Source: Angustibacter sp. Root456 (lineage in GTDB: Bacteria; Actinomycetota; Actinomycetes; Actinomycetales; Angustibacteraceae). From it: 64,000 bases of DNA. The notes beneath the pieces are model-generated. The model was not told the origin of the DNA. It made no database searches and was given only the letters and a program-made list of their open reading frames with translations. This document shows positions 2,370 to 60,584 of this stretch, piece by piece (within the stretch, counting starts at the first letter, position 1; each line of letters begins with the position of its first letter). The stretch lies in contig NZ_LMER01000020.1 of assembly GCF_001426435.1 (NCBI RefSeq), positions 651,985 through 715,984 on the forward strand, read 5' to 3'. The position numbers were made by a program, and so were the translations under genes.

Positions 2370-3029
2370 ATGAGGAGGCGCGCGCTCGTGGCCGCGGTGG
2401 CCGGCTGGGTCACCGTGGTGGGTGCGACGTCGACCGTGGCGTGGTTCGCCATCGACCGCGCGGGTCGCGAGGTGCTCACCGCGACGTCCGAGGCGCGGGT
2501 CGACCCCGGCGCGGTGAGCACCGGTGCCCCGCGCACGCCGCGGCCGTCACGGGCCCAGACGGCACCGACGACCTCGCCGAGCTCCTCGACCTCCACGCCC
2601 ACCTCGCCGACGGCGCCGATGTCACGGTCGTCCAGCCGCGCGGCGACGACGGGCTCCGGGCCACGCACCACGACGCCGAGCCGCCCGCGCAGCTCGACGA
2701 CGTCTGCCGCGCCGTCGTCGAGCCGCCCGCGCGCGACGACGACGTCCACACCGCCCAAGCCGGCGGCCGTCGACCGCACCGTGCGGGTGGAGGGCGGTCA
2801 GGTGGGCGTGCGGTGCGTGGGGCGCACGGCGTCCCTGCGGTTCGCCCAGCCGGCGGACGGCTGGGCGGTGGGCGTAGACGACTCAGGGCCGGAGCACGTG
2901 AAGGTGACGTTCCGGTCGTCCGGCGAGCGTCGTGAGATCGAGGTCGAGGCCGAGTGCTCGGGGGGCACCCCCGTGTTCTCGACCTCGGACGACGAGCGCC
3001 GCGAGAGCGAGTCCGGCGCCGACGACTGA
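2370..3029 (+). CDS. exported Ser/Thr/Pro-rich protein
   Basis: A 219-residue protein of unknown function. The N-terminus (MRRRALVAAVAGWVTVVGAT) is a positively charged, hydrophobic signal or anchor segment. It is followed by a long Ser/Thr/Pro/Arg-rich linker (about 45-135) and a compact C-terminal part of about 80 residues with two Cys (in GVRCVG and AECSGG) that may form a disulfide. The ATG at 2370 is chosen because the signal peptide starts there and a CAGGCT box ends six bases upstream. It is divergent from the two-component operon, so it may be a target or accessory of that system; this is inference. Its stop is followed at once by repeat copy R1. Confidence 0.75.
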   Translation: MRRRALVAAVAGWVTVVGATSTVAWFAIDRAGREVLTATSEARVDPGAVSTGAPRTPRPSRAQTAPTTSPSSSTSTPTSPTAPMSRSSSRAATTGSGPRTTTPSRPRSSTTSAAPSSSRPRATTTSTPPKPAAVDRTVRVEGGQVGVRCVGRTASLRFAQPADGWAVGVDDSGPEHVKVTFRSSGERREIEVEAECSGGTPVFSTSDDERRESESGADD

Positions 3030-3031
3030 CC

Positions 3032-3104
3032 GTTGATCACGTTCAGTGGGTGACACTCCGCTTGCCGAGGGGTGCATCCCTCGGCAAGCGGGTGCAGGCC
3101 TTGA
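3032..3104 (+). repeat. dispersed repeat R, copy R1 (forward)
   Basis: The copy starts with GTTGATCACGTTCAGTGGG and contains a perfect hairpin: CTTGCCGAGGG (3061-3071), a six-base loop, then CCCTCGGCAAG (3078-3088). It lies two bases after a stop codon and could act as a terminator, but there is no T tract. It is inverted with respect to copy R2, and the two enclose the methyltransferase gene. Confidence 0.85.
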
Positions 3105-3124
3105 CCAGCGCGCCATGATCAGCC

Positions 3125-3973
3125 ATGAGCACCTCGCCCGACCCGGCGGACGACGTCCCGCCCGCTCTGCGCAACGCTCGCCTCTTCGACGCGCTCGCCG
3201 ACAGCTACGACGCGGTGGGCGTCGACTTCTTCGGGCCCATCGCCGCCGCGTTGCTGCAGGCCCTCGACCCCCAGCCCGGTGAGTCCTTCGTCGACCTCGG
3301 CTGCGGCAAGGGGGCGCTGCTCCTGCCGGCAGCGCAGGCGGTCGGGACGACGGGCCGTGCCGTGGGTGTCGACATCTCACCCGGCATGCTCTCGGCGGCC
3401 CGGGAGGCCGCCGACCGGCTCGGGCTCGCGGCGGTCGACCTGGCGGTCGGGGACGTCCAGTCGCCCGAGCTGCCCGCCGGCGCCTTCGACGTCGTGGGCT
3501 CGTCCCTCGTGCTGTTCTTCCTCGCCGACCCGCTCGCGGCGCTCACCGCCTGGCGCGCCCTGCTCGCACCTGGTGGGCGCCTGGGCGTGAGCACCTTCGG
3601 GGCCCAGGACGACGTCTGGCGGGCCGTCGACGACGTGTTCACTCCCTACCTGCCGCAGTTCGTGCTCGATGCGCGCACCAGCGGGGGTCGCGGTCCCTTC
3701 GCCTCGGACGCCGGGATGGAGCAGCTGTTCGCGGCTGCCGGGCTCACCGACGTCCGGACGGTGTCGCGTGCGCTGCCGGTGCGCTTTCGGGACGCCGACC
3801 ACTGGGCCGCCTTCAGCATGTCGACGGGCCAGCGGGCGATGTGGGCTGCTGTGCCGGAGGGCGAGCGGGCCGGCGTCCGGGAGGAGGCGGTGCGGCGCCT
3901 GCGGCGGGCGTCGACCTCCGACGGCGGCATCGAGCTCACCCAGCAGGTGCGGTACACGCTGGGGCGCGCCTGA
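3125..3973 (+). CDS. SAM-dependent methyltransferase
   Basis: A 282-residue class I (Rossmann-fold) methyltransferase of the UbiE/MenG-like type. Motif I is FVDLGCGKGALLL (about residues 56-68), followed by the acidic end of strand 2 in GVDISPGM and a motif III-like strand in APGGRLGVSTF. The substrate cannot be read from the sequence; distant relatives act on quinones, sterols and small metabolites. The gene stands alone between inverted repeat copies R1 and R2 and upstream of the heat-shock operon, with which it shows no functional link. The ATG at 3125 lacks a strong ribosome-binding site. Its placement between inverted repeats raises the possibility that it is cargo acquired with them. 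Confidence 0.88.
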   Translation: MSTSPDPADDVPPALRNARLFDALADSYDAVGVDFFGPIAAALLQALDPQPGESFVDLGCGKGALLLPAAQAVGTTGRAVGVDISPGMLSAAREAADRLGLAAVDLAVGDVQSPELPAGAFDVVGSSLVLFFLADPLAALTAWRALLAPGGRLGVSTFGAQDDVWRAVDDVFTPYLPQFVLDARTSGGRGPFASDAGMEQLFAAAGLTDVRTVSRALPVRFRDADHWAAFSMSTGQRAMWAAVPEGERAGVREEAVRRLRRASTSDGGIELTQQVRYTLGRA

Positions 3974-3991: not shown

Positions 3992-4071
3992 CCACTTGCC
4001 GAGCCTTCCGCGCACGTGTCGAGGGGTGCAACCCTCGGCAAGCGGCGTGTCACCCACTGAACGTGATCAAC
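3992..4071 (-). repeat. dispersed repeat R, copy R2 (reverse)
   Basis: Read on the minus strand it starts at 4071 with GTTGATCACGTTCAGTGGG and continues through a CTTGCCGAGGG block into two CTCGRCA-type tail repeats. It faces copy R1 across the methyltransferase gene and separates that gene from the dnaK control region. Confidence 0.85.
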
Positions 4072-14060: not shown

Positions 14061-16901
14061 GTGAGCGAGCTCGTCGAGGAACTGCGGCGCGCCGGGGTCG
14101 CGGAGGTCGACGACAGCGAGCTGCGTCGCACGCTCTACTCCTCGGACGCCTCGCTGTACCGCGTCCCGCCTCGAGCGGTGGTGGTGCCGCAGCACGTCGA
14201 CGAGGTCCTCGCCACGATGGAGGTCTGCCGCAGCCTCGGCGTCCCGGTGACCATGCGGGGCGCGGGCACCTCGATCGCCGGCAACGCGGTAGGGGCCGGC
14301 GTCGTGGTCGACGTCTCGCGCCACCTCAACCGCGTGCTGGACGTCGACACCGAGGCGGGGACGGCGCTGGTCGAGCCCGGTGTGGTGCACGCCGCGCTGC
14401 AGCAGCAGGTGCAGCCGTCGGGGTGGCGTTTCGGGCCCGATCCGTCGACTCACAACCGCGCCACCTTCGGCGGCATGATCGGCAACAACGCTTGCGGTTC
14501 GAGGGCTCTGGCGTACGGCCGCACCAGCGACAACGTGCTCGGTCTCGACGTCGTCACGGCCAGGGGTGAGCGGCTCACCGTGGGGCGCCTCGACGGCCGC
14601 ACGCAGGCCACCACGGCCTCGCCGACGCTCGACGCCTTGCGCCGGGTCATCGACGCCGACCTGGCCGTGGTGCGCACGGAGTTCGGCCGGTTCCGGCGTC
14701 AGGTGTCGGGCTACTCGCTCGAGCACCTGTTGCCCGAGAACGGCTTCGACGTCGCGCGGTTCCTCGTCGGCACCGAGGGCACGCTCGCGCTCACGCTGGC
14801 CGCGCGGGTGCGCCTGGTGCGCGATCCCACCCACCGGGTGCTCGTCGTCCTGGGTTACCCGTCGATGGCGGACGCGGCGGACGCCGTCCCGGCGTTGCTC
14901 GAGCACGAGCCCGTCGCCTGCGAGGGGCTCGACCGCCGGATCGTCGACGTCGTGCGTGACCGGCGCGGCCCGTCGGCGGTGCCCGACCTCCCGGACGGCG
15001 ACGGCTGGCTGTTCGTGGAGCTCGCTGGTGACGACCCGCGCGCCCTGCAGGACGCCGCCCGTCGCGTCGTCGGCGAGGCGGGGGCGCTGGACGCGCGTGT
15101 GGTCGACCACGCGGGGCAGGCCGCCGCGTTGTGGCGCATTCGCGAGGACGGCGCCGGCCTGTCGGCGCGAACTCCCGCGGGCGAGCCGGCCCACTCGGGC
15201 TGGGAGGACGCCGCCGTCCCGCCCGACCGCCTCGGGGACTACCTGCGCGAGTTCGACGACCTCATGGCGGGGTACGGGCTCGACGGCCTGCCGTACGGCC
15301 ACTTCGGTGACGGCTGCGTGCACATCCGCATCGACTTCCCGTTCCGCTCGGGCACGCGCGTGTTCCGCGACTTCATGCTGGACGCCGGAAGGTTGGCCGC
15401 CGCGCACGGGGGCTCGATGTCGGGGGAGCACGGGGACGGCCGCGCCCGCAGCGAGCTGCTGCCGCTGATGTACTCCCGCGAGGCCATCGCGCTGTTCGGC
15501 CGGGTCAAGACGGTGCTCGACCCCGACAACCTGCTGAACCCCGGAGTGGTCGTCGACCCCCTGCCGCTCGACGCCGACGTCCGCGTCGCCCACGCGCCGC
15601 CGTACCGGCAGTCGCTCGGTCTGGCGTACCGGCACGACCGGGGCGACCTGTCGATGGCGGTGCACCGGTGCACCGGTGTCGGCAAGTGCCGGGCCGACAC
15701 CACCGGCACCGGCGGCGTCATGTGCCCGTCGTACCTCGCCACCAAGGACGAGAAGGACACCACGCGCGGGCGCTCGCGCGTGCTGCAGGACGCCGTCGCC
15801 GGCCACCTCGGCCCCGACCCCTGGCGGTCGGAGGCGGTGCACGACGCGCTCGACCTCTGCCTGTCGTGCAAGGGCTGCTCGTCAGACTGCCCCACCGGCG
15901 TCGACATGGCGTCGTACAAGGCGGAGTACCTGCACCAACGCTGGCGCGGCCGGCTGCGCCCGCGCTCGCACTACGCGCTCGGGTGGCTGCCGCGCTGGAC
16001 CCGGCTCGTCGCCCGCGTGCCGGGGCTCACCCGGCTGGCCAACCTCATGATGCGCGTGCGGCTGGTGCACCCGCTCGTCACCTGGGCGGCCGGCGTCGAC
16101 GCGCGCAGGTCGCTGCCGACGTTCGCGCCGCACACCTTCCGCCAGTGGTTCGCCTCGCGCGAGGCGCCATCGCGCCCTGCCCGGCACGGCGACGTCGTGC
16201 TGTTCGTCGACACCTTCACCGACGCGTTCTCGCCCGACGTCGGCCAGGCCGCGGTGGCGGTGCTCGAGGACGCCGGCTACCGCGTGCGCGTCACGAGCGA
16301 GCCGGTCTGCTGCGGGCTCACGTGGGTGTCGACGGGCCAGCTCGACGGCGCTCGCAAGCAGGCGTCGGCGACGGTGCAGGCGCTGCTGCCGCACGTGCGC
16401 GGCGGGGCTGCCGTGCTGGGCCTGGAGCCGTCGTGCACGGGGGTGCTGCGCTCCGACGTCCTCGAGCTGCTGCCGGACGACGAGCTGGCCGCCGCCCGCG
16501 AGGTCGCGGACGCCACGGTCACGCTCGCCGAGCTGCTGCGCCGGACGCCGGACTGGTCGCCGCCCGATCTCGGTGGCGAGCGCGCGGTCGCCCAGCCGCA
16601 CTGCCACCACCACGCCGTGATGGGGTGGCAGGCCGATGCGGCGCTGCTCGACGAGGCCGGCGCCGACGTCCAGCGCCTCGGCGGCTGCTGCGGCCTCGCC
16701 GGCAACTGGGGCGTCGAGCGCGGGCACCACGAGACGTCGGTGGCGGTGGCCGAGACCCAGCTGCTGCCCGCCGTGCGTGAGCTGGGCGACGGCGGCGTGG
16801 TGCTCGCCGACGGCTTCTCGTGCCGCACCCAGCTCGACGACCTCGCGTCGCGGCAGGGCGTGCACCTCGCCCAGCTCCTCGCCCGCCACCTCTCCCGTTG
16901 A
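14061..16901 (+). CDS. FAD/Fe-S 2-hydroxyacid dehydrogenase (YdiJ/GlcD-like)
   Basis: A 946-residue fusion of a GlcD-like flavin domain and a GlcF-like iron-sulfur domain. The FAD_binding_4 domain (about 35-210) shows TMRGAGTSIAGNAVG and ATFGGMIGNNACGSRAL. The FAD-oxidase C domain includes YGHFGDGCVHIRIDFP and GGSMSGEHGDGRARSE. Two 4Fe-4S clusters are indicated by the cysteines in CTGVGKC and VMCPSY, and by CLSCKGCSSDCPTG. Two CCG (heterodisulfide-reductase-type) motifs are VCCGLTWVS and LGGCCGLAGNWG. E. coli YdiJ, with this architecture, is a D-2-hydroxyglutarate dehydrogenase; D-lactate is an alternative substrate. A TAGGCT box ends six bases before the GTG start, so it is probably leaderless. 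The stop codon is formed by the first bases of repeat R3. Confidence 0.9.
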   Translation: MSELVEELRRAGVAEVDDSELRRTLYSSDASLYRVPPRAVVVPQHVDEVLATMEVCRSLGVPVTMRGAGTSIAGNAVGAGVVVDVSRHLNRVLDVDTEAGTALVEPGVVHAALQQQVQPSGWRFGPDPSTHNRATFGGMIGNNACGSRALAYGRTSDNVLGLDVVTARGERLTVGRLDGRTQATTASPTLDALRRVIDADLAVVRTEFGRFRRQVSGYSLEHLLPENGFDVARFLVGTEGTLALTLAARVRLVRDPTHRVLVVLGYPSMADAADAVPALLEHEPVACEGLDRRIVDVVRDRRGPSAVPDLPDGDGWLFVELAGDDPRALQDAARRVVGEAGALDARVVDHAGQAAALWRIREDGAGLSARTPAGEPAHSGWEDAAVPPDRLGDYLREFDDLMAGYGLDGLPYGHFGDGCVHIRIDFPFRSGTRVFRDFMLDAGRLAAAHGGSMSGEHGDGRARSELLPLMYSREAIALFGRVKTVLDPDNLLNPGVVVDPLPLDADVRVAHAPPYRQSLGLAYRHDRGDLSMAVHRCTGVGKCRADTTGTGGVMCPSYLATKDEKDTTRGRSRVLQDAVAGHLGPDPWRSEAVHDALDLCLSCKGCSSDCPTGVDMASYKAEYLHQRWRGRLRPRSHYALGWLPRWTRLVARVPGLTRLANLMMRVRLVHPLVTWAAGVDARRSLPTFAPHTFRQWFASREAPSRPARHGDVVLFVDTFTDAFSPDVGQAAVAVLEDAGYRVRVTSEPVCCGLTWVSTGQLDGARKQASATVQALLPHVRGGAAVLGLEPSCTGVLRSDVLELLPDDELAAAREVADATVTLAELLRRTPDWSPPDLGGERAVAQPHCHHHAVMGWQADAALLDEAGADVQRLGGCCGLAGNWGVERGHHETSVAVAETQLLPAVRELGDGGVVLADGFSCRTQLDDLASRQGVHLAQLLARHLSR

Positions 16902-16977
16902 TCACGTTCAGTGGGTGACACTCCGCATGCCGAGGGTTGCACCCCTCGGCAAGTGGCAGAAACCCTCGAGAAGTGGC
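16897..16977 (+). repeat. dispersed repeat R, copy R3 (forward)
   Basis: It begins with GTTGATCACGTTCAGTGGG and includes CCGAGGGTTGCACCCCTCGG, followed by two CCCTCGRSAAG units (ending near 16947 and 16972). The TGA within its first bases is the stop codon of the preceding dehydrogenase gene. Confidence 0.85.
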
Positions 16978-17029
16978 CGCCGCGGTGCGGCATGCTCGGG
17001 AGTATGCGATGCACGGGGGAGGTCGAGCG

Positions 17030-17899
17030 ATGAGCGCCGCCGCGGTGCTGGTCGCGCTGGCGGCCGCCATCGCGTTCGGCTGGTCGACCGCGCTCATGCA
17101 CCACGGCGCGTCCGGCGCGGACGACGGCGTGGGCTACCTGCGCCTTCTGCGCCACGTCGTGACGCAGTGGCGGTGGCTGCTCGGCATGGCGGCGAGCCTG
17201 CTGGGTCTTGGGCTGCACGTCGTCGCGCTGCACCTCGGCTCGCTGTCGCTGGTGCAGCCGCTCGTGGTCACCGGTCTGTTCTTCTCCCTGGTCTTCCGCG
17301 ACGCGCTCGACCACCAGTGGCCCTCGCGCCGCACCCTCACCTGGGGCGCCATCACCGCCGCCGGGCTCGCGCTGTTCCTCACCGCCGCAGGCTCGACGGA
17401 CGGCGTTCCTGCCCCGGACGACGGCCACGCGGCCGTGCTCATCGGCGTCGGTCTGGCGCTGACCGCCACCTTCGTGTGGGCGTCGGTGCGCTTCAGGCCG
17501 TGGGCGGGCCTGCTCATGGGGACGGCGGCGGGCATCGTCTTCGGGCTCGTGGCGGGGTCGATCAAGGCAGCCACCGAGGCGTGGAGCGCGGGCGAGGTGC
17601 TGAGCTCGTGGCCGGCGTACGCCGTGTGCGTCCTGGGACCGCTCGGCTTCCTGCTCAACCAGCGGGCCTACAACCGCACCCGGCTGCCCGACTACCTGCC
17701 CATGCTCAACATGGTGAACCCGCTGGTGAGCCTGGTCTTCGGCATCGTCGTGTACGCCGAGCGGCCGCCCGGCGACCTCGCGTCGGTGACCGCCGAGGTC
17801 ATCGGCCTCGGAGCGGTGCTGCTGGGCATCTTCTTCCTCGCCCGCACCGACGAGCCCACCCCCGCCGCGGCGCCCCGCGAAGTTGATCACGTGAAGTAG
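17030..17899 (+). CDS. DMT/EamA-like membrane transporter
   Basis: A 289-residue integral membrane protein with about nine to ten hydrophobic segments starting at residue 4 (AAAVLVALAAAIAFGWSTAL). The overall plan, with paired small helices and a final segment around AEVIGLGAVLLGIFFLAR, fits the drug/metabolite transporter superfamily, in the branch that also includes NIPA-like Mg transporters. The substrate is unknown. The ATG at 17030 is preceded by GGGGGAGG, a good ribosome-binding site. The last residues (VDHVK) and the stop are encoded by repeat copy R4, and R3 lies upstream, so the gene is enclosed by two related repeats. The convergent gene ends inside the same repeat. Confidence 0.8.
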   Translation: MSAAAVLVALAAAIAFGWSTALMHHGASGADDGVGYLRLLRHVVTQWRWLLGMAASLLGLGLHVVALHLGSLSLVQPLVVTGLFFSLVFRDALDHQWPSRRTLTWGAITAAGLALFLTAAGSTDGVPAPDDGHAAVLIGVGLALTATFVWASVRFRPWAGLLMGTAAGIVFGLVAGSIKAATEAWSAGEVLSSWPAYAVCVLGPLGFLLNQRAYNRTRLPDYLPMLNMVNPLVSLVFGIVVYAERPPGDLASVTAEVIGLGAVLLGIFFLARTDEPTPAAAPREVDHVK

Positions 17900-17967
17900 G
17901 TTCACGAGCACTTCGCACGGGTTGCACGCCGCGTGAAGTGCTGGCCCACCCCCTTAACGTGATCACC
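17882..17967. repeat. repeat R4, self-paired variant of family R
   Basis: An imperfect palindrome of 86 bases. It opens with GTTGATCACGT and closes with ACGTGATCACC, with the inner arms GAGCACTTCGCACGGG and CGCGTGAAGTGCTGG around a TTGCA loop. Its left half resembles the R consensus. The stop codons of both convergent genes (17897-17899 on plus, 17963-17965 on minus) lie within it. Confidence 0.75.
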
Positions 17968-18940
17968 GGGGCGGGCGCTCGGTGAGGTGGGCGACGCGAT
18001 CGCGGGCGCGCCGGGCCGCCTTCTCGGCGGCGCCCAACGCCTTGTCAGCCGCCGCGCGCCCGGACGCCGCGGTCGTCGCCCGCCGCTGGGCGTCCCGGAC
18101 GGCGAAGCGGGCCTGGGCGAGCTGCTCGCGCAGGTCGTCGACGTGCGCCTCGGCCTGCGACTGCACCTGCTCGGCCTGCTGCTGCTCGGCCTCGGCCGCC
18201 GCGGCAGCCTGCCGAGCCTCCTCGACGGCGCGCTCGGCCTCGTCGAGGTCGCGCGCCGCCTGATCGCGACGCTGAGCCAGCACCTGGTCGCCCCGCGACG
18301 CCCCCGCCTTCGCCCGTCCCGGCGACGGCGGTCGCGACCTCTCCCGCTCCGTCTCCCGCTCCGTCTCCCGCGCCTGCTCCCGGGGCTTCTCCCGCGCCTT
18401 CTCCCGGGGCTTCTCGGGTGACGCCTTCGCCGGACCCCGCCCGGTGAGCGGCGTGGCTGTGGCCGCGGTGAGGTCGACCTCGCCGAACCCGGCGTACGCC
18501 AGGGCCTTGGTGAGGCGTCCGGACGCCACCGCCTCGGACGCCGCGACGTCGGCGACCGCCGCGCGCAGCGTCGCCTCGACCTCCTGCCGCCCGGCGTCGC
18601 TCAACCCACCGTCGACCAGCCCGACGGCGGTCTCGACCAACCCGGCTGCGGCGCGCTGCCGCTCGTGCCCGAGGGCCCGCAGGTCGTCGCCCTTCAACCC
18701 GGCCTGGGCGTCGCGCAGGCGTGCGCCCAGCTCCAGGTAGGCGGCGAGCTCGGCGGCGGCGTCGCGCGCCAGCTGGTTGACGGCGTAGGCCCCGGCGGTC
18801 GGCCGCCGGAGCGCCTTCAGCTGCTTCGCCAGCCCGGTGTCGCCGTCCCGCTTGGCGTCGGCCGCCAGGGCGTCGCGGCGCGCCGTGAACTCGCCAGGTG
18901 CCAGCGCGTACAGCTCGTCGACGGCCTCGTCGAGGTCCAT
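17963..18940 (-). CDS. coiled-coil protein, unknown function
   Basis: A 325-residue protein I cannot assign to a named family. The N-terminal half (about 1-165) looks globular and helical ([40 protein letters not shown]). A basic, repetitive linker follows, rich in EK/ER/PRE units (about 185-225), and then a long Ala/Glu/Gln/Arg coiled coil (about 235-315). The ATG at 18940 has GGAGGTGGGC directly upstream. It is divergent from clpB across a 142-base control region with a HAIR operator, so it may share heat-shock control. There is no signal peptide or membrane segment, so it is probably cytosolic or DNA-associated. The stop codon lies in repeat R4. Confidence 0.75.
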
Positions 18941-21677: not shown

Positions 21678-21685
21678 CGCCCCCT

Positions 21686-21753
21686 CCGGCAAATTCTTGG
21701 GAATTCGTACGTCTGGGGCACGCCAGACGTGCAAGTTCTTGGGAATTTGCCGG
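21686..21753. repeat. imperfect palindrome after clpB
   Basis: Outer arms CCGGCAAATT (21686-21695) and AATTTGCCGG (21744-21753) and inner arms ACGTCTGG (21709-21716) and CCAGACGT (21723-21730) pair perfectly. Between them both sides carry the same TTCTTGGGAATT in direct, not inverted, orientation. It is related in its outer arms to the palindrome at 60508. It separates convergent genes and may terminate both. Confidence 0.8.
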
Positions 21754-28289: not shown

Positions 28290-28337
28290 GCCCCCGGCCC
28301 CTGCTCGATCCTGCCCGCCAGAACCTCTCCCGTGGGT

Positions 28338-28418
28338 TTGGCGCGGGGGCACCCTGCTGCATTCCTATGGCAGTTGGGTGCCCCAGTCGCACTCATGGAG
28401 TGAAGTGATCCTCCCCAG
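28338..28418 (+). repeat. dispersed repeat C, copy C1
   Basis: An ~80-base element that starts with TTGGCGCGGGGGCACCCTGC and ends with CTCCCCAG. It contains the inverted pair GGGGGCACCC and GGGTGCCCC. The same order of blocks occurs twice, in inverted orientation, at 38786-38980. Confidence 0.8.
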
Positions 28419-28422
28419 CGTG

Positions 28423-28552
28423 GCGCTGGCGTGCATGATCACGGACGGCGGTGGGTGCGCTGGCGTGCATGATCACGGACGGCGGTGGGTGCGCTGGCGT
28501 GCATGATCACGGACGGGGGTGGGTGCGCTGGCGTGCATGATCACGGACGGCG
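28423..28552 (+). repeat. 34-bp tandem repeat array (family T)
   Basis: Four units of 34 bases start at 28423, 28457, 28491 and 28525; the last is cut short. Each carries GCGCTGGCGTGCATGATCAC followed by GGACGGCGGTGGGT. Units differ at one or two bases. The last unit encodes the final residues and stop codon of the methyltransferase gene on the minus strand. Confidence 0.95.
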
Positions 28553-29155
28553 GGAGGCGGGGCGGCGCAGGACGCTGACGGCGAAGGAGCTGTCGTCGGC
28601 GAACGGGCGCAGGTCCCAGGTGGCGAAGCGGTGCTCGAGCAGGAGGCCGCTGCCCTCGGTGTCGGCGTCGAAGTCGGCGAGTGAGTAGCCGCGGTCGAGG
28701 CCGAAGCCGATCACCGCGACGCCGTCGGCCCGTAGGTGCTCGGCGAGCCGTCGCAGCACGGCGCCACCGCTGCCCGGCGCGAGGTAGGGCATGACGTTGC
28801 CCGCGCACACGACCGCGTCGAACGGCGCGCTCTCACCCGCCGCCGCCAGGTCGAGCTCCGAGAGGTCGGCGACCAGCCACCGCGGCCCGGGGTGGTCGGC
28901 CTCCGCGGCCTCGATGAGCAGCGGGTCGGCGTCCACACCGACCACCTCGTGGCCGCGCACGTGCAGCTCGGCACCCACTCGCCCGGGGCCGCACCCGGCG
29001 TCCACGATCCGCGCACCGCGCGGCACCATGGCGTCGACGAGCCGCGCCTCACCGGCCAGGTCGGCGCCGTCGGCAGCCATCCGCCGGAAGCGGTCGATGT
29101 ACCACTGGGAGTGCTCGGGACCGTGCTGGGACGCCCAGCGCGTGGGGTTCGCCAT
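28541..29155 (-). CDS. SAM-dependent methyltransferase
   Basis: A 204-residue class I methyltransferase. Motif I is RIVDAGCGPGRVGAEL, the acidic strand-2 end is in VVGVDADPLLIEAAE, and a motif IV-like strand is FDAVVCAGNVM. The start MANPTRWAS is chosen because conserved sequence (GPEHSQWYIDRFRRMA) follows at once and TACGGT ends seven bases upstream on this strand; a longer frame runs into the MFS gene. The substrate is unknown. The C-terminal residues RRP and the stop are encoded by the last 34-bp repeat unit, so the original end of the protein may have been altered by the repeat. Confidence 0.88.
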   Translation of the reverse strand: MANPTRWASQHGPEHSQWYIDRFRRMAADGADLAGEARLVDAMVPRGARIVDAGCGPGRVGAELHVRGHEVVGVDADPLLIEAAEADHPGPRWLVADLSELDLAAAGESAPFDAVVCAGNVMPYLAPGSGGAVLRRLAEHLRADGVAVIGFGLDRGYSLADFDADTEGSGLLLEHRFATWDLRPFADDSSFAVSVLRRPASRRP

Positions 29156-30692: not shown

Positions 30693-30761
30693 GGTCCGAC
30701 GCTAGGTGGGGCGGACGACGCCCGCCCGCCGGTGACCGGCTCGGCCACGCCCGGGTGGGTT

Positions 30762-30779
30762 GACGTGCATGATCACGGG
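30762..30779 (+). repeat. relic of repeat family T
   Basis: GACGTGCATGATCACGGG matches the core of the 34-bp repeat array at 28423. It lies between the divergent MFS and lemA genes. Confidence 0.55.
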
Positions 30780-30862
30780 GGGGGTGGCGTCGGGAACCCA
30801 GAGGCGGTGCCGGACGTCGCACCACCGGTAGCATCGCGCTGCACCCTCGGAAGGGGACCTTC

Positions 30863-37293: not shown

Positions 37294-37311
37294 CCCCCGC
37301 CCGGCCCACCC

Positions 37312-37342
37312 CGTCGTCCGTGATCATGCACGCCAGCGCACC
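37312..37342 (-). repeat. single copy of repeat family T
   Basis: Read on the minus strand it is GGTGCGCTGGCGTGCATGAT followed by CACGGACGAC, one unit of the array seen at 28423. It lies between the convergent LCP and DedA genes. Confidence 0.8.
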
Positions 37343-37374
37343 TCGGGGCCCGGGGTGGCCGCCCGTCGTCCGGG

Positions 37375-38785: not shown

Positions 38786-38980
38786 TTGGCGCGGTGGCAC
38801 CCTGCGGCCAACCTAGTGAAGCGGGGGCACCCAGTCGCCATCAGCGAATGAAGTAGAGCGCCCCAGTCCCGCCACGCGCTCACCCTGACGCGCGGGGGAA
38901 CTGGGGAAGATCACTGCATCGAGCGATGCCCACTGGGGCACCCCACTGCCATAGGTTGGCCGCAGGGTGCCACCGCGCCA
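38786..38980. repeat. inverted pair of repeat C (C2 forward, C3 reverse)
   Basis: C2 runs 38786-38866 and C3 runs 38901-38980 in reverse. Their outer ends are perfectly complementary over 29 bases (38787-38815 and 38952-38980); both carry GCGCGGTGGCACCCTGCGG or its complement. C3 read in reverse matches copy C1 at 28338 more closely than C2 does. The pair fills the gap between convergent genes. Confidence 0.9.
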
Positions 38981-38994
38981 CACAACGGGAGGGG

Positions 38995-48880: not shown

Positions 48881-50278
48881 ATGACTCGGACGGCGGGCAG
48901 GGGCGGGGCGAGGCGGCTGGTGGTGATCGGCGCCGACGCCGCCGGCATGAGCGCGGCGAGCCAGGCGCTGCGCGTGGCCGCCGCCCGAGGTGAGCGCCTC
49001 GAGGTGATCGCGTTCGAGAGCGGCGAGCACACGTCGTACAGCCAGTGCGGGGTCCCCTACTGGGTCGCCGGCGACGTCGACTCCGCGGACGCGTTGGTCG
49101 CCCGCACGGCCGAGCAGCACCGGGCCAACGGCATCGACCTGCGGCTGCGCACCGAGGTGACCGAGCTCGACCTCGACCGCCGCGAGGTGGCGGTGCGCGT
49201 CCTCGACAGCGGCCGCACCGAGCGCGTCGGCTTCGACGACGTCCTCCTCGCCACCGGCGCCGCCGAGGTGTGGCCCGACTGGGCGCGCGGTCTGCCCGGC
49301 GTCCACCCCGTCAAGACCCTGGACGACGGCGCCACCTGGCGCTCGCTGCTGGCCGGACGCGACGGCGAGCCGCCCCGCCGCGCGATCGTGGTCGGCGGCG
49401 GGTTCATCGGGGTCGAGGCGGCCGAGGCGTTCGCCCGGCGGGGCGTCCAGACGCTGCTCGTGACGCGCGGCGAGGAACCCATGTCGTCGTCGCTCGACCC
49501 CGCCATGGGCGCGCTCGTGCGCGAGGGGCTGGAGCGGCTCGGCGTCGAGGTGGTGTGCGGCACCGAGGTCGAGGGCGTGGAGTCCCGCGCCGGCGAGCTG
49601 ACCACGGCGTGCATCGGTGGCCACGAGCACCGCGCCGACGTCGTGGCGCTCGCGGTGGGGGTGCGCCCGCGCGTCGAGCTGGCCACCGCCGCCGGCCTGC
49701 GGGTGGGCGACCACAGCGGCCTCGTGCCCGACCACACTCAGCGCGTCGCGGACGGCGTGTGGTCGGCCGGCGACTGCTGCGAGGTGTGGGACCGCGTGCT
49801 CGAGCAGTACTGGTACACCCCGCTCGGGACGCACGCCAACAAGGCCGGCCGCGTCGCGGGCACGAACATCGGCGGTGGTTCGGCGCGCTTCGCCGGCTCG
49901 GTGGGCACCGCGATCACGCGCGCCGGCGAGGCCGAGGTGGCGCGCACCGGCGTGCTCGCCGACTGGGCGCGCCGGCACGGCTGGGACGTCGAGCAGGTGA
50001 CGGTGCGGTCGACCACGGCGTCCGGCTACATGCCCGAGGCCGACCCGATCACGGTGAGCGTGCTGGGCGAGCGCGGCACGGGGCGCCTGCTGGGCGCCCA
50101 GATCGTGGGTGGGCGCGGCGCGGGCAAGCGGATCGACGTCGCCGCGATGGCGTTGTGGTCGGGGCTCGGCGCGCACGACGTCGCTGCCGCCGACCTGGCG
50201 TACGCGCCGCCGTTCTCACCGGTGTGGGACCCCGTGCAGATCGCCTGCCGCAAGCTCGCCGACGCCCTCTCCCGTTGA
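48881..50278 (+). CDS. CoA-disulfide reductase-like flavoprotein
   Basis: A 465-residue pyridine nucleotide-disulfide oxidoreductase. The FAD site is VVIGADAAGMSAAS, the NAD(P) site is VVGGGFIGVEAAEAF, and the second FAD motif is VWSAGDCCEVWD. A redox Cys lies in YSQCGVPYW, matching the SFCGxPY site of CoA-disulfide and NADH-oxidase-type enzymes. A C-terminal dimerisation domain follows (TRAGEAEVARTGVLAD). Likely roles are reduction of CoA or other low-molecular disulfides, or peroxide or oxygen defence. TAGCGT ends seven bases before the ATG. The last bases, CTCTCCCGTTGA, are repeated again just before repeat R5. Confidence 0.88.
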   Translation: MTRTAGRGGARRLVVIGADAAGMSAASQALRVAAARGERLEVIAFESGEHTSYSQCGVPYWVAGDVDSADALVARTAEQHRANGIDLRLRTEVTELDLDRREVAVRVLDSGRTERVGFDDVLLATGAAEVWPDWARGLPGVHPVKTLDDGATWRSLLAGRDGEPPRRAIVVGGGFIGVEAAEAFARRGVQTLLVTRGEEPMSSSLDPAMGALVREGLERLGVEVVCGTEVEGVESRAGELTTACIGGHEHRADVVALAVGVRPRVELATAAGLRVGDHSGLVPDHTQRVADGVWSAGDCCEVWDRVLEQYWYTPLGTHANKAGRVAGTNIGGGSARFAGSVGTAITRAGEAEVARTGVLADWARRHGWDVEQVTVRSTTASGYMPEADPITVSVLGERGTGRLLGAQIVGGRGAGKRIDVAAMALWSGLGAHDVAAADLAYAPPFSPVWDPVQIACRKLADALSR

Positions 50279-50291
50279 CGCGCCCTCTCCC

Positions 50292-50372
50292 GTTGATCAC
50301 GTTCAGTGGGCGACACACCGCTTGCCGAGGGTTGCATCCCTCGAGAAGTGGCCGGAACCCTCGACATCCCCT
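50292..50372 (+). repeat. dispersed repeat R, copy R5 (forward)
   Basis: It begins with GTTGATCACGTTCAGTGGG and carries GCTTGCCGAGGGTTGCATCC followed by two CCCTCGA units. The 16 bases before it repeat the 3' end of the flavoprotein gene, as if that end was duplicated when the element arrived. A TAGGTT box for fba (50391-50396) lies just downstream. Confidence 0.85.
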
Positions 50373-51476: not shown

Positions 51477-51555
51477 GTTGATCACGTTCAGTGGGTGACA
51501 CTCCGCTTGCCGAGGGTTGCACCCCTCGACAACCGGACGGACCCCTCGACAAGTC
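51477..51555 (+). repeat. dispersed repeat R, copy R6 (forward)
   Basis: It begins with GTTGATCACGTTCAGTGGG, continues with GCTTGCCGAGGGTTGCACCC and ends in two CCCTCGACAA units about 20 bases apart. Together with the inverted copy R7 it encloses the AbiEi-like gene. Confidence 0.85.
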
Positions 51556-51656
51556 CCCCGCGGCCCGTCGTCCACAGGGACGGCGGGCCGCTGGCTTGTC
51601 CACAGGCGCCGACGCCCGGACGGCGGCCCCCGGCTTCGCGCCGTCACGCTGCCTCG

Positions 51657-52634
51657 ATGCGCACCGTCTCGATCGAGCTCCCGCCGTCCCTGTCGTCCGC
51701 TTTCGTCAAGCAGGGGTCGGTGTTCAGCACGGCGCAAGCCGTCGCGGCCGGCCTGAGCCACCGCGAGATCACCACTCGCGTGGCGCGCGCCGAGTGGGTG
51801 CGGTTGCGGCGCGGCGCCTACACCACGCGCCAGGTGCACGAGGCGAGCGACGAGGCGGCGCGCCACGTCCTCGCCGCGCGAGCCGCCCACCTCACCCTGA
51901 CCGCCCGCCACGCCTTCAGCCACACCACCTCGGCCGTGCTGCACGACCTCCCGCTGCACGAGCTCGACCTCAGCGAGGTGCACGTGACGCATCTGGACGG
52001 CGAGGGCAGCGGTCGGCACGAGTCGAAGGTGTGGCACCACATGGGCACCGTGCCCCCTGGCGACCTCACCAGGGCCGGCGACCTCCCCGCGCTGAGCCTG
52101 TCACGCACCGCCTTCGACGTCGCGCGCGTGGCGGCGCCGGGCTCGGCCCTCGTCGTGGCCGACGCTGCACTGCGTCGGGGGACGACGTCCGCCGATCTGC
52201 GCCGACAGCTCGAGGCCGGCATGGACTGGCCGGGCGCCCGATCGGCGTCGCGGCTGCTGCCGCTGGCCGACGGTCGGGCTGAGTCCGCAGGTGAGAGCCT
52301 CGCCCGGCTGGTCTTCCACGACATCGGGCTCGACCCGAACGAGCTGCAGCTCGACATGACCACGGACCGAGGTGAGGCCCGGGTGGACTTCGCCTGGACC
52401 CGGTGGCGCATCGTCGGTGAGTTCGACGGCCGCATCAAGTACGGGCGGCTGGTGCGGCCGGGGGAGTCGCCGTCGGACGTCGCGTGGCGCGAGCGGCAAC
52501 GCGAGCTGGCGATCGAGCGGGCGGGCTGGATCGTCGTCCGGTTCACGTGGGCGGAGCTGCGCGACCACGCGCTGGTGCGGCATCGGCTGCTGGAGGCGAT
52601 GGCCCGCGCGCGGGTGCTCTTCGGCCTCGTCTGA
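51657..52634 (+). CDS. AbiEi-like HTH / nuclease-like protein
   Basis: A 325-residue protein of the actinobacterial type annotated as AbiEi-family antitoxin domain. The N-terminal ~75 residues form a winged-helix-like region (FSTAQAVAAGLSHREITTRV, WVRLRRGAYTT). The middle resembles the AbiEi C-terminal region (HAFSHTTSAVLHDLPLHEL). The end (about 215-325: ESLARLVFHDIGL, EARVDFAWTRWRIVGEFDG, KYG) resembles a DUF559/Vsr-like PD-(D/E)xK nuclease with a possible acidic and Lys site. No separate toxin gene is adjacent. The ATG at 51657 is used because the family starts there and CACGCT ends six bases upstream. It lies between inverted repeats R6 and R7. Confidence 0.75.
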   Translation: MRTVSIELPPSLSSAFVKQGSVFSTAQAVAAGLSHREITTRVARAEWVRLRRGAYTTRQVHEASDEAARHVLAARAAHLTLTARHAFSHTTSAVLHDLPLHELDLSEVHVTHLDGEGSGRHESKVWHHMGTVPPGDLTRAGDLPALSLSRTAFDVARVAAPGSALVVADAALRRGTTSADLRRQLEAGMDWPGARSASRLLPLADGRAESAGESLARLVFHDIGLDPNELQLDMTTDRGEARVDFAWTRWRIVGEFDGRIKYGRLVRPGESPSDVAWRERQRELAIERAGWIVVRFTWAELRDHALVRHRLLEAMARARVLFGLV

Positions 52635-52640
52635 GGGCTC

Positions 52641-52729
52641 TTCTCGAGGGTTCTTCCCGAGGGTTCAGCCCGCTTGTCGAGGGGTGCAACCCTCGCCAAG
52701 CGGAGTGTCACCCACTGAACGTGATCAAC
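52641..52729 (-). repeat. dispersed repeat R, copy R7 (reverse)
   Basis: On the minus strand it starts at 52729 with GTTGATCACGTTCAGTGGG. Its tail has three to four CCCTCGRSAAG-like units in a row, more than any other copy. It faces R6 across the AbiEi-like gene. Confidence 0.85.
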
Positions 52730-53496: not shown

Positions 53497-54492
53497 ATGA
53501 GCACGGTCCTGGGCACCTTCGGGATCGGACCGGACTCCGAGGTGCTCTACCGTCTGGTGCTGCGCCAGGACGGCCAGACCGTGCCGGAGTACGCCGCCAC
53601 GCTCGGCTGGGACGTCGACCACCTGCACGGTGCGCTGCGCCCGCTGCGCGAGCACCGGCTCGTGCGGCACAACCTCGACGACACGCTGGCCGCGCCGCAC
53701 CCCCGCCGCACGCTCAACCGGCTCATCGAGCGCGAGAGCGTCCACCTCGAGCTGCGCCGGCGCGAGCTCGACGAAGTGGCCGCGGCGGTCAGCGACTTCT
53801 CCGCCGAGCACCGCGCCGGCCAGACCGACGTGGGTCAAGCCGGGTTCGGGTCGGCGCCGTTCGACGTCGTGCCCCCCGACGGCGTGGCCGCGCTCGTCGA
53901 GGACCTGCTGACCTCGACCACCGGGCCGATCCGGTCGTTCCACCTCGCCGTCGCGGCCGGCCCGGCCACCGACGCGGGCGTCGACAAGCGAGCCCGCGAG
54001 GTGATGCGCGAAGGCCGCGAGCTGCGCTCGATCTACCCCGTCAGCGTGCTGGACGACGCCCAGCGCCTCGCGTGGGTGCGCGAGTGGGCGGCGCTGGGCG
54101 AGCGGCAGCGCATGGTGGAGTCGGTGCCGGCCGAGTTCGCGGTGTTCGGTGCGGACGTCGTGCTCGCGGCGGCCACCTGGGGGGAGCCGGCGACCAGTGC
54201 CGTGACGCTGCGCTCGCAGCTGCTCGTGGCGGCCTTCACGGCGGTGTTCGACGACGCCTGGGCCGGCGGCCTGCCCGTGCCCGACCAGGACCTCGAGCAG
54301 GACGCCGAGACCCGGCTGCTCACCCTGCTGGCCAGCGGTTTCAAGGACGAGGCGATCGCGCGCTACCTCGGGCTCGGGGTGCGCACGGTGCGGCGCCGGG
54401 TGGCCGCGCTCATGGACGAGCTGAGCGTGCACACGCGCTTCCAGCTGGGCGTGGTGGCGGAGCGCCGCGGGCTGCTCGGCCGGCGTCCGTGA
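53497..54492 (+). CDS. LuxR-type HTH regulator with TrmB-like N-terminus
   Basis: A 331-residue transcription regulator. The first ~70 residues resemble a TrmB-like winged helix (VLYRLVLRQDGQTVPEYAAT, LHGALRPLREHRLVRH). The centre is helical and may bind a ligand. The C-terminal LuxR helix-turn-helix (about 268-325) reads TRLLTLLASGFKDEAIARYL then GVRTVRRRVAALMDELSVHT. The family is common in actinobacteria, often beside secondary-metabolite or wall genes; targets are unknown. Two perfect palindromes upstream suggest autoregulation or control by another factor. The stop codon is formed by the first unit of a 17-bp tandem repeat. Confidence 0.9.
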   Translation: MSTVLGTFGIGPDSEVLYRLVLRQDGQTVPEYAATLGWDVDHLHGALRPLREHRLVRHNLDDTLAAPHPRRTLNRLIERESVHLELRRRELDEVAAAVSDFSAEHRAGQTDVGQAGFGSAPFDVVPPDGVAALVEDLLTSTTGPIRSFHLAVAAGPATDAGVDKRAREVMREGRELRSIYPVSVLDDAQRLAWVREWAALGERQRMVESVPAEFAVFGADVVLAAATWGEPATSAVTLRSQLLVAAFTAVFDDAWAGGLPVPDQDLEQDAETRLLTLLASGFKDEAIARYLGLGVRTVRRRVAALMDELSVHTRFQLGVVAERRGLLGRRP

Positions 54493-54573
54493 GCGGCCGG
54501 CGTCCGTGAGCGGGCGGCGTCCGTGAGCGGGCGGCGTTCGTGAGCGGGCGGCGTTCGTGAGCGGGCGGCGTTC
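54481..54573 (+). repeat. 17-bp tandem repeat, five units
   Basis: Units start at 54481, 54498, 54515, 54532 and 54549; a partial one follows at 54566. The consensus is CGGCGTCCGTGAGCGGG, and units four and five have T for the second C of GTCC. The first unit supplies the last residues and the TGA stop of the LuxR-type gene. Confidence 0.95.
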
Positions 54574-60483: not shown

Positions 60484-60507
60484 CGCCCGCCGCCCCGACC
60501 CACTTCG

Positions 60508-60573
60508 CGGCAAATTCCCCGGAACTTGTACGCCTGAGGCCTCTCAGGCGTACAAGTTCCGGGGAATTTGCCG
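60508..60573. repeat. 31-bp perfect palindrome after purC
   Basis: Arms 60508-60538 and 60543-60573 pair perfectly over 31 bases with only a four-base loop (GCCT). Blocks GGCAAATTCCCCGGAACTTG and CTTGTACGCCTGAG mark the left arm. The outer GGCAAATTC/GAATTTGCC is shared with the palindrome after clpB. It separates convergent genes and could end both transcripts. Confidence 0.92.
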
Positions 60574-60584
60574 GCAGGGGGGGG

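Follow-up and report, generated by a model that had tools for sequence, protein, structure and literature searches.

A dispersed palindromic repeat at gene 3′ ends in Angustibacter and the stop codons it can supply

The high-GC genome of Angustibacter sp. Root456 contains a family of short palindromic repeats, of which we describe copies R1 to R7 from a stretch of 64,000 nucleotides (nt) (contig NZ_LMER01000020.1, positions 651,985 to 715,984; hereafter, the window). R3 and R4, which lie on either side of a putative transporter gene, are probably copies of a dispersed, non-coding orphan repeat, similar to miniature inverted-repeat transposable elements (MITEs) and repetitive extragenic palindromes (REPs), that settles at gene ends and gives the gene a stop codon and a hairpin in its 3′ untranslated region (UTR). 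The repeats form a family, are placed on the 3′ side of genes, are present or absent by comparison with the only other genome of the genus (G001; hereafter, the congener), and encode the last codons and the stop where a gene overlaps them.

The original prediction placed the TGA of a dehydrogenase gene within the first five bases of R3, and the raw sequence bears this out: the gene ends with CTC TCC CGT TGA, its TGA at 16899–16901 falling inside the GTTGATCACGTT of R3, which starts at 16897. It also held that R4 contains both the end of the transporter gene and the stop of a convergent coiled-coil gene, and the coordinates agree on both counts. The transporter gene ends with GTT GAT CAC GTG AAG TAG, of which R4 encodes VDHVK and the TAG, and the TGA of the coiled-coil gene is supplied by the other end of R4 (GTGATCACG). 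The enclosure of the transporter by R3 and R4 is likewise real, by coordinates. Genes stop inside a copy elsewhere as well: at loci L013, L017 and L039 of this genome, at the MeaB gene (named from its sequence) of the congener, and at L045 and L190 in other actinobacteria.

The 18-nt end of the element, TTGATCACGTTCAGTGGG, occurs eight times in the window with up to three mismatches, against an expectation of 0.02. With R3 as query, BLAST found about 40 places in the genome; oriented extraction and a covariance model (CM) raised the number to about 45 copies of approximately 80–86 nt. Class A copies are one-ended and approximately 80 nt long, with the layout (C)CCG-TTGATCACGTTCAGTGGGTGACACTCCGCTTGCCGAGGGTTGCACCCCTCGACAAGCGG-NCGGAACCCTCGACAAG; class B copies are two-ended palindromes of exactly 84 nt, TTGATCACGTTAAGTGGG...CCCACTTAACGTGATCAA. 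The near-invariant end of the element is TTGATCACGT, and in the copies of this genome the base preceding TTGATCA, after a C-rich leader, is always G. Class B is short, non-coding and bounded by terminal inverted repeats (the outer 10 nt or so, inverted and invariant), as a MITE is, and class A has one such end; dispersal and variable presence among relatives are also MITE-like, most of the orthologous sites compared being empty in the congener.

A covariance model and covariation alignment of 17 class B copies show pairs 2–10 to be invariant and two-sided changes in 16 pairs further in, over 84 fixed positions. The covariation score is reached by none of 500 shuffles and lies above all slid controls. 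Predicted folding is very stable for one copy (L035, −80 kcal/mol, z −15) and stable for R4 (z −4.2), whereas the class A copy L066 folds no better than shuffled sequence (z −0.15). Six loci had no match to a curated Rfam covariance model at E ≤ 1, and a known RNA family was rejected for the element on this ground.

Translation of the consensus gives a TGA in two of the three frames (in GTTGATCA and in GGGTGAC, respectively) and one open frame, VDHVQWVTL... Genes enter by the open frame at R4, at L017 and at the congener meaB element, and all three carry TAG in place of the tryptophan codon TGG. TAG stands at this position in 3 of 3 used ends and in 2 of 71 others (Fisher p = 1.5 × 10⁻⁴; 1.2 × 10⁻³ without the R4-type subfamily), which suggests, from few cases, selection for a prompt stop. 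With these built-in stops, a gene that runs into the element would lose or gain no more than its last few residues, and copies placed at 3′ ends would therefore persist.

Placement was compared with intergenic length over 400 kb of the same contig. Among 43 copies placed, 15 lie between convergent genes, 26 between tandem genes and 2 between divergent genes (R1 having been moved to tandem from the list of open reading frames (ORFs)), against 5.1, 23.2 and 14.6 expected; by this measure the convergent excess has p of about 8 × 10⁻⁵ and the divergent deficit p of about 6 × 10⁻⁶, and by number of intergenic regions the values are 0.007 and 0.025. No copy among the 43 lies inside a called gene. 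A stop codon lies within 30 nt of 16 of 25 tandem copies (7.4 expected, p about 1 × 10⁻⁴). Most copies sit 2–30 nt past the stop, and provision of the stop by the element is therefore one outcome of placement and not the rule. A strictly unidirectional element is ruled out, since class A copies between tandem genes point either way (14 versus 7).

Orthologues without the repeat show where it has changed a protein. The expectation that the element enters at 3′ ends and replaces the stop, with an altered C-terminus as its trace, is supported at R5 and at the congener meaB gene; at R3 the stop has not moved. The clearest example, judged from aligned sequences, of an element turned into the C-terminus of an existing protein is the congener MeaB, which ends in VAAVTSDVDHVQ (..AAVTSDVDHVQ) with its TAG inside a class B element; the orthologues without the element end in ..DAVTA here and in ..DAVSSA, ..AAVAG and other endings in other genera, and the congener protein has gained the six-residue tail DVDHVQ and the TAG from the element. 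At R5, the pyridine-nucleotide oxidoreductase (48920–50278) ends in ADALSR, whereas four orthologues end in ..ATL, ..ERL, ..DRL and ..ERL; the two extra residues, SR, are encoded by the TCC CGT of the repeat edge. This gene ends with CTCTCCCGTTGA, with CGCGCCCTCTCCCGTTGATCACG next, and the recurrence of the gene end directly ahead of the element, noted originally, is confirmed in the sequence.

The dehydrogenase at R3 ends in LSR here, in LPG in G001 and G003, in LPR in G018 and in LPE in G049: the last residues differ, but the stop is in the orthologous place, and therefore nothing was shortened. The transporter ends in ..REVDHVK, against ..RSYAG in its sole close orthologue, whose own C-terminus varies and therefore does not fix the ancestral state. 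For the coiled-coil gene, the 1.87 Mb of congener sequence examined contains no orthologue. L015, tried as an example of truncation, was set aside: its protein ends earlier here than in the congener, but the tails of outgroups vary and give no polarity.

The congener has its own diverged version of the element, which agrees in ends, length and layout and differs in its core. No element follows the congener genes for the dehydrogenase, the R5 oxidoreductase, the aldolase and the transporter, nor several others. Counterparts of R2, R6 and R7 are present in the same orientation, with lineage-specific sequence, the R6 counterpart lying beside the AbiEi-like gene and not beside the aldolase gene; an additional membrane-protein gene lies between the aldolase gene and this counterpart in the congener (L069:15388-16160). 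The element was found in none of the other 57 relatives searched, and is absent outside the genus within its order. Copies of 84 nt with the same 18-nt ends occur in Jiangella, the most convincing of three other families of the class in which the class B model matches palindromes of 83–84 nt. Some of the matches in the other two families (f45 and f27) may be long palindromes of a generic sort; the exact 18-nt ends are common to Jiangella only. Exact-pattern matches on contigs outside Jiangella are chance-like, and the flanks viewed contain no second palindromic arm. In three f45 palindromes (L177, L179 and L185) the outer arms could, by eye, alternatively fold as separate small hairpins, giving a three-hairpin form. 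Matches sampled from other actinobacterial families (n = 17, by CM or pattern) comprise 10 convergent, 7 tandem and no divergent placements. It is doubtful, on present evidence, that actinobacteria share a class-wide set of palindromes of a fixed length of approximately 84 nt, one- or two-ended with a near-invariant TTGATCACGT-type end, spread by a trans-acting system directed at the 3′ ends of genes, where it would replace stops and 3′ UTRs with those of the element.

In the mechanism that we propose for the settling repeat, copies would insert beside or across a stop codon, or be copied there from an existing element, and a trans-acting enzyme would recognize the near-invariant end. After arrival, the long hairpin would become part of the 3′ UTR of the gene and may end or stabilize transcripts from both sides. 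Several observations weigh against this account. Neither a flanking target duplication nor a clean empty site can be demonstrated, because the congener is too diverged: the only candidate duplication is the partial one at R5, on one side, and the empty sites of the congener are too diverged for comparison. No RAYT-type (REP-associated tyrosine) transposase (Y1, PF01797) matches in the genome, although control genomes were positive; no transposase is found among nine window genes scanned, and no other mobilizer was identified, the genome-wide search having been confined to Y1. The unmoved stop at R3 fits local mutation or gene conversion of an existing 3′ end equally well, and the counterparts of R2, R6 and R7, as read from their sequences, would be as compatible with concerted evolution or retention as with fresh insertion. 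The TAG statistic comes from three genes, one of them in the R4 subfamily that already bears TAG, and the genes around the copies were called with a home-made program based on codon usage and trained on the window.

It is quite possible, if short of probable, that the elements are primarily functional bidirectional terminators or mRNA-end hairpins, selected as such and homogenized by gene conversion, with the stop overlap a by-product of a tight fit. Placement and predicted hairpins make a terminator role plausible: the convergent excess and the closeness to stops in both orientations would be expected of it, as would the very stable predicted hairpins of L035 and R4 with their covariation, the retention of R2, R6 and R7 at orthologous sites with lineage-specific sequence, and the convergent placement of 10 of the 17 sampled matches in other families, with none divergent. 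However, an intrinsic terminator combines a GC-rich hairpin with a U-tract, and at R3 and R4 there is no U-tract and a terminator scan was negative. Class A copy L066 folds like its shuffles, most of the orthologous genes compared in the congener end without the element, and the outer 10 nt are more invariant than pairing requires.

The enclosure of single genes raises another, improbable reading, in which R3–transporter–R4, R1–methyltransferase–R2 and R6–AbiEi-like gene–R7 are composite mobile units, each with one gene between inverted repeats whose TTGATC ends point outwards. Eight neighbouring pairs lie less than 2 kb apart, where 1.0 would be expected and 5000 draws gave at most 6, and three of them in the window enclose one gene; R6 and R7 are kept around the AbiEi-like gene in the congener despite a different upstream gene, and the transporter, which has few relatives in the order, occupies another site in the congener. 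The congener transporter, however, has no element directly after it, the enclosed genes are unrelated and none is a transposase, paired elements are as unlike as random copies, and some close pairs share orientation. Since the pairs are not more alike than other copies and only R6/R7 is seen conserved as a pair, transport of an enclosed gene is a possibility and not a finding. Local duplication as the source of close pairs is ruled out, neighbours being no more alike than random pairs, except for L031:1624 and L031:2246, which are 622 bp apart, also have the downstream flank in common and probably arose by local duplication. It is very unlikely that the overlap at R3 and R4 is coincidental, the repeats having drifted or been placed downstream of genes whose own stops happen to match GTTGA. 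The identical R3 stop position in repeat-free orthologues speaks for this; against it stand the tails that the element encodes in MeaB and in the R5 protein, and the fact that unrelated genes overlap copies in the same way.

The nearest described phenomenon is that of QMITE1 and QMITE2 of Coxiella burnetii, palindromic repeats classed as MITEs; the functional genes that they affect have them at the 3′ end, with C-terminal overlaps of 1–50 bp and an in-frame copy that gives EnhC its tail in one strain (PMC5896051). Like them, the elements here are palindromic, lie at gene 3′ ends and can supply a C-terminus (PMC5896051); by description they are set apart by an unrelated host, a length of approximately 80–86 nt, near-invariant TTGATCACGT ends, the existence of a one-ended beside a two-ended form, and a TAG where a gene reads into the open frame. 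REPs and the GTAG- and CGTC-tagged repeats are dispersed, lineage-specific palindromes downstream of coding regions, mostly between convergent and unidirectional genes, and the CGTC families have no dedicated transposase (PMC3733652). The elements share this placement and, with the CGTC families, the lack of a known transposase (PMC3733652). REPs, however, are 20–40 bp long with GTAG or CGTC tags, whereas the elements here have about twice that length and end in TTGATCA, and no Y1/RAYT is found in the genome; a RAYT/REP system is ruled out by the absence of PF01797, and the 84-nt palindrome with its TTGATCA ends does not match one either. Bidirectional intrinsic terminators are also long hairpins between convergent genes, but the elements have no U-tract and show dispersed-family sequence identity and lineage-specific presence. 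Another actinobacterial intergenic repeat, the mycobacterial interspersed repetitive unit (MIRU) of Mycobacterium tuberculosis, has ends that overlap the stop and start codons of flanking genes; it is not known as a long palindrome and carries small ORFs. On the best reading of these comparisons, the element would represent a new family of the same kind as the Coxiella QMITEs. No description of it was found in the literature searched, the coverage of which was incomplete.

In MeaB and the R5 oxidoreductase, compared with outgroups, a tiny non-coding repeat has turned into the C-terminus and stop codon of a conserved protein, and annotation of gene ends in such genomes should expect repeat-encoded tails. 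With a family common to this genus and Jiangella, and similar palindromes in two more actinobacterial families, a mobilizer could be sought. The copies in the window and the genes that end in R3 and R4 are listed in Table 1.

Table 1 Positions of repeat copies and associated features in the window
Feature	Position	Strand	Remarks
R1, class A	3032..3111	+	3 nt past stop of + ORF ending at 3029
R2, class A, reversed	3992..4071	-	just past methyltransferase gene 3125-3973; congener counterpart L076:9259-
FAD-linked oxidase / 4Fe-4S dehydrogenase, stop in R3	14061..16901	+	FAD_binding_4, FAD-oxidase_C, Fer4
R3, class A (one-ended)	16897..16976	+	GTTGATCACGTT end abuts dehydrogenase; hairpin CCGCATGCCGAGGGTTGCACCCCTCGGCAAGTGG; tail AACCCTCGAGAAG
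Putative transporter, no Pfam match, last five codons and TAG in R4	17030..17899	+	
R4, class B (two-ended) palindrome	17882..17967	.	diverged subfamily; TGATCACGTGAAGTAGG common to R4 and L029:2691
Coiled-coil protein gene, TGA in R4, convergent to transporter	17963..18940	-	
CTCTCCCGTTGA gene end and second copy directly before R5	50267..50291	+	partial duplication, about 18 bp
R5, class A	50292..50370	+	absent from congener
R6, class A	51477..51556	+	11 nt past aldolase stop; congener counterpart L069:15388-, before same AbiEi-like gene
R7, class A, reversed	52647..52729	-	past AbiEi-like gene 51657-52634; congener counterpart L069:14149+

Some class A copies end with a tail unit of the AACCCTCGACAAG type present two or more times (L018, and window 52647–52670). 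The window also contains other repeats. A 34-bp tandem repeat, GCGCTGGCGTGCATGATCACGGACGGCGGTGGGT, in about four copies, also has TGATCACG, and related single copies, one of them inverted, accompany it (28389–28558, 30753–30784 and 37304–37348). A second palindromic family has GGGTGCC / GGCACCC arms (28336–28387 and 38787–38983) and includes a 92-nt inverted pair 10 nt apart. A near-perfect 40-bp hairpin at 60499–60582 has an inverted relative at 21680–21752, 39 kb from it, and there is a 17-bp tandem repeat, CGGCCGGCGTCCGTGAG, at 54477–54571.

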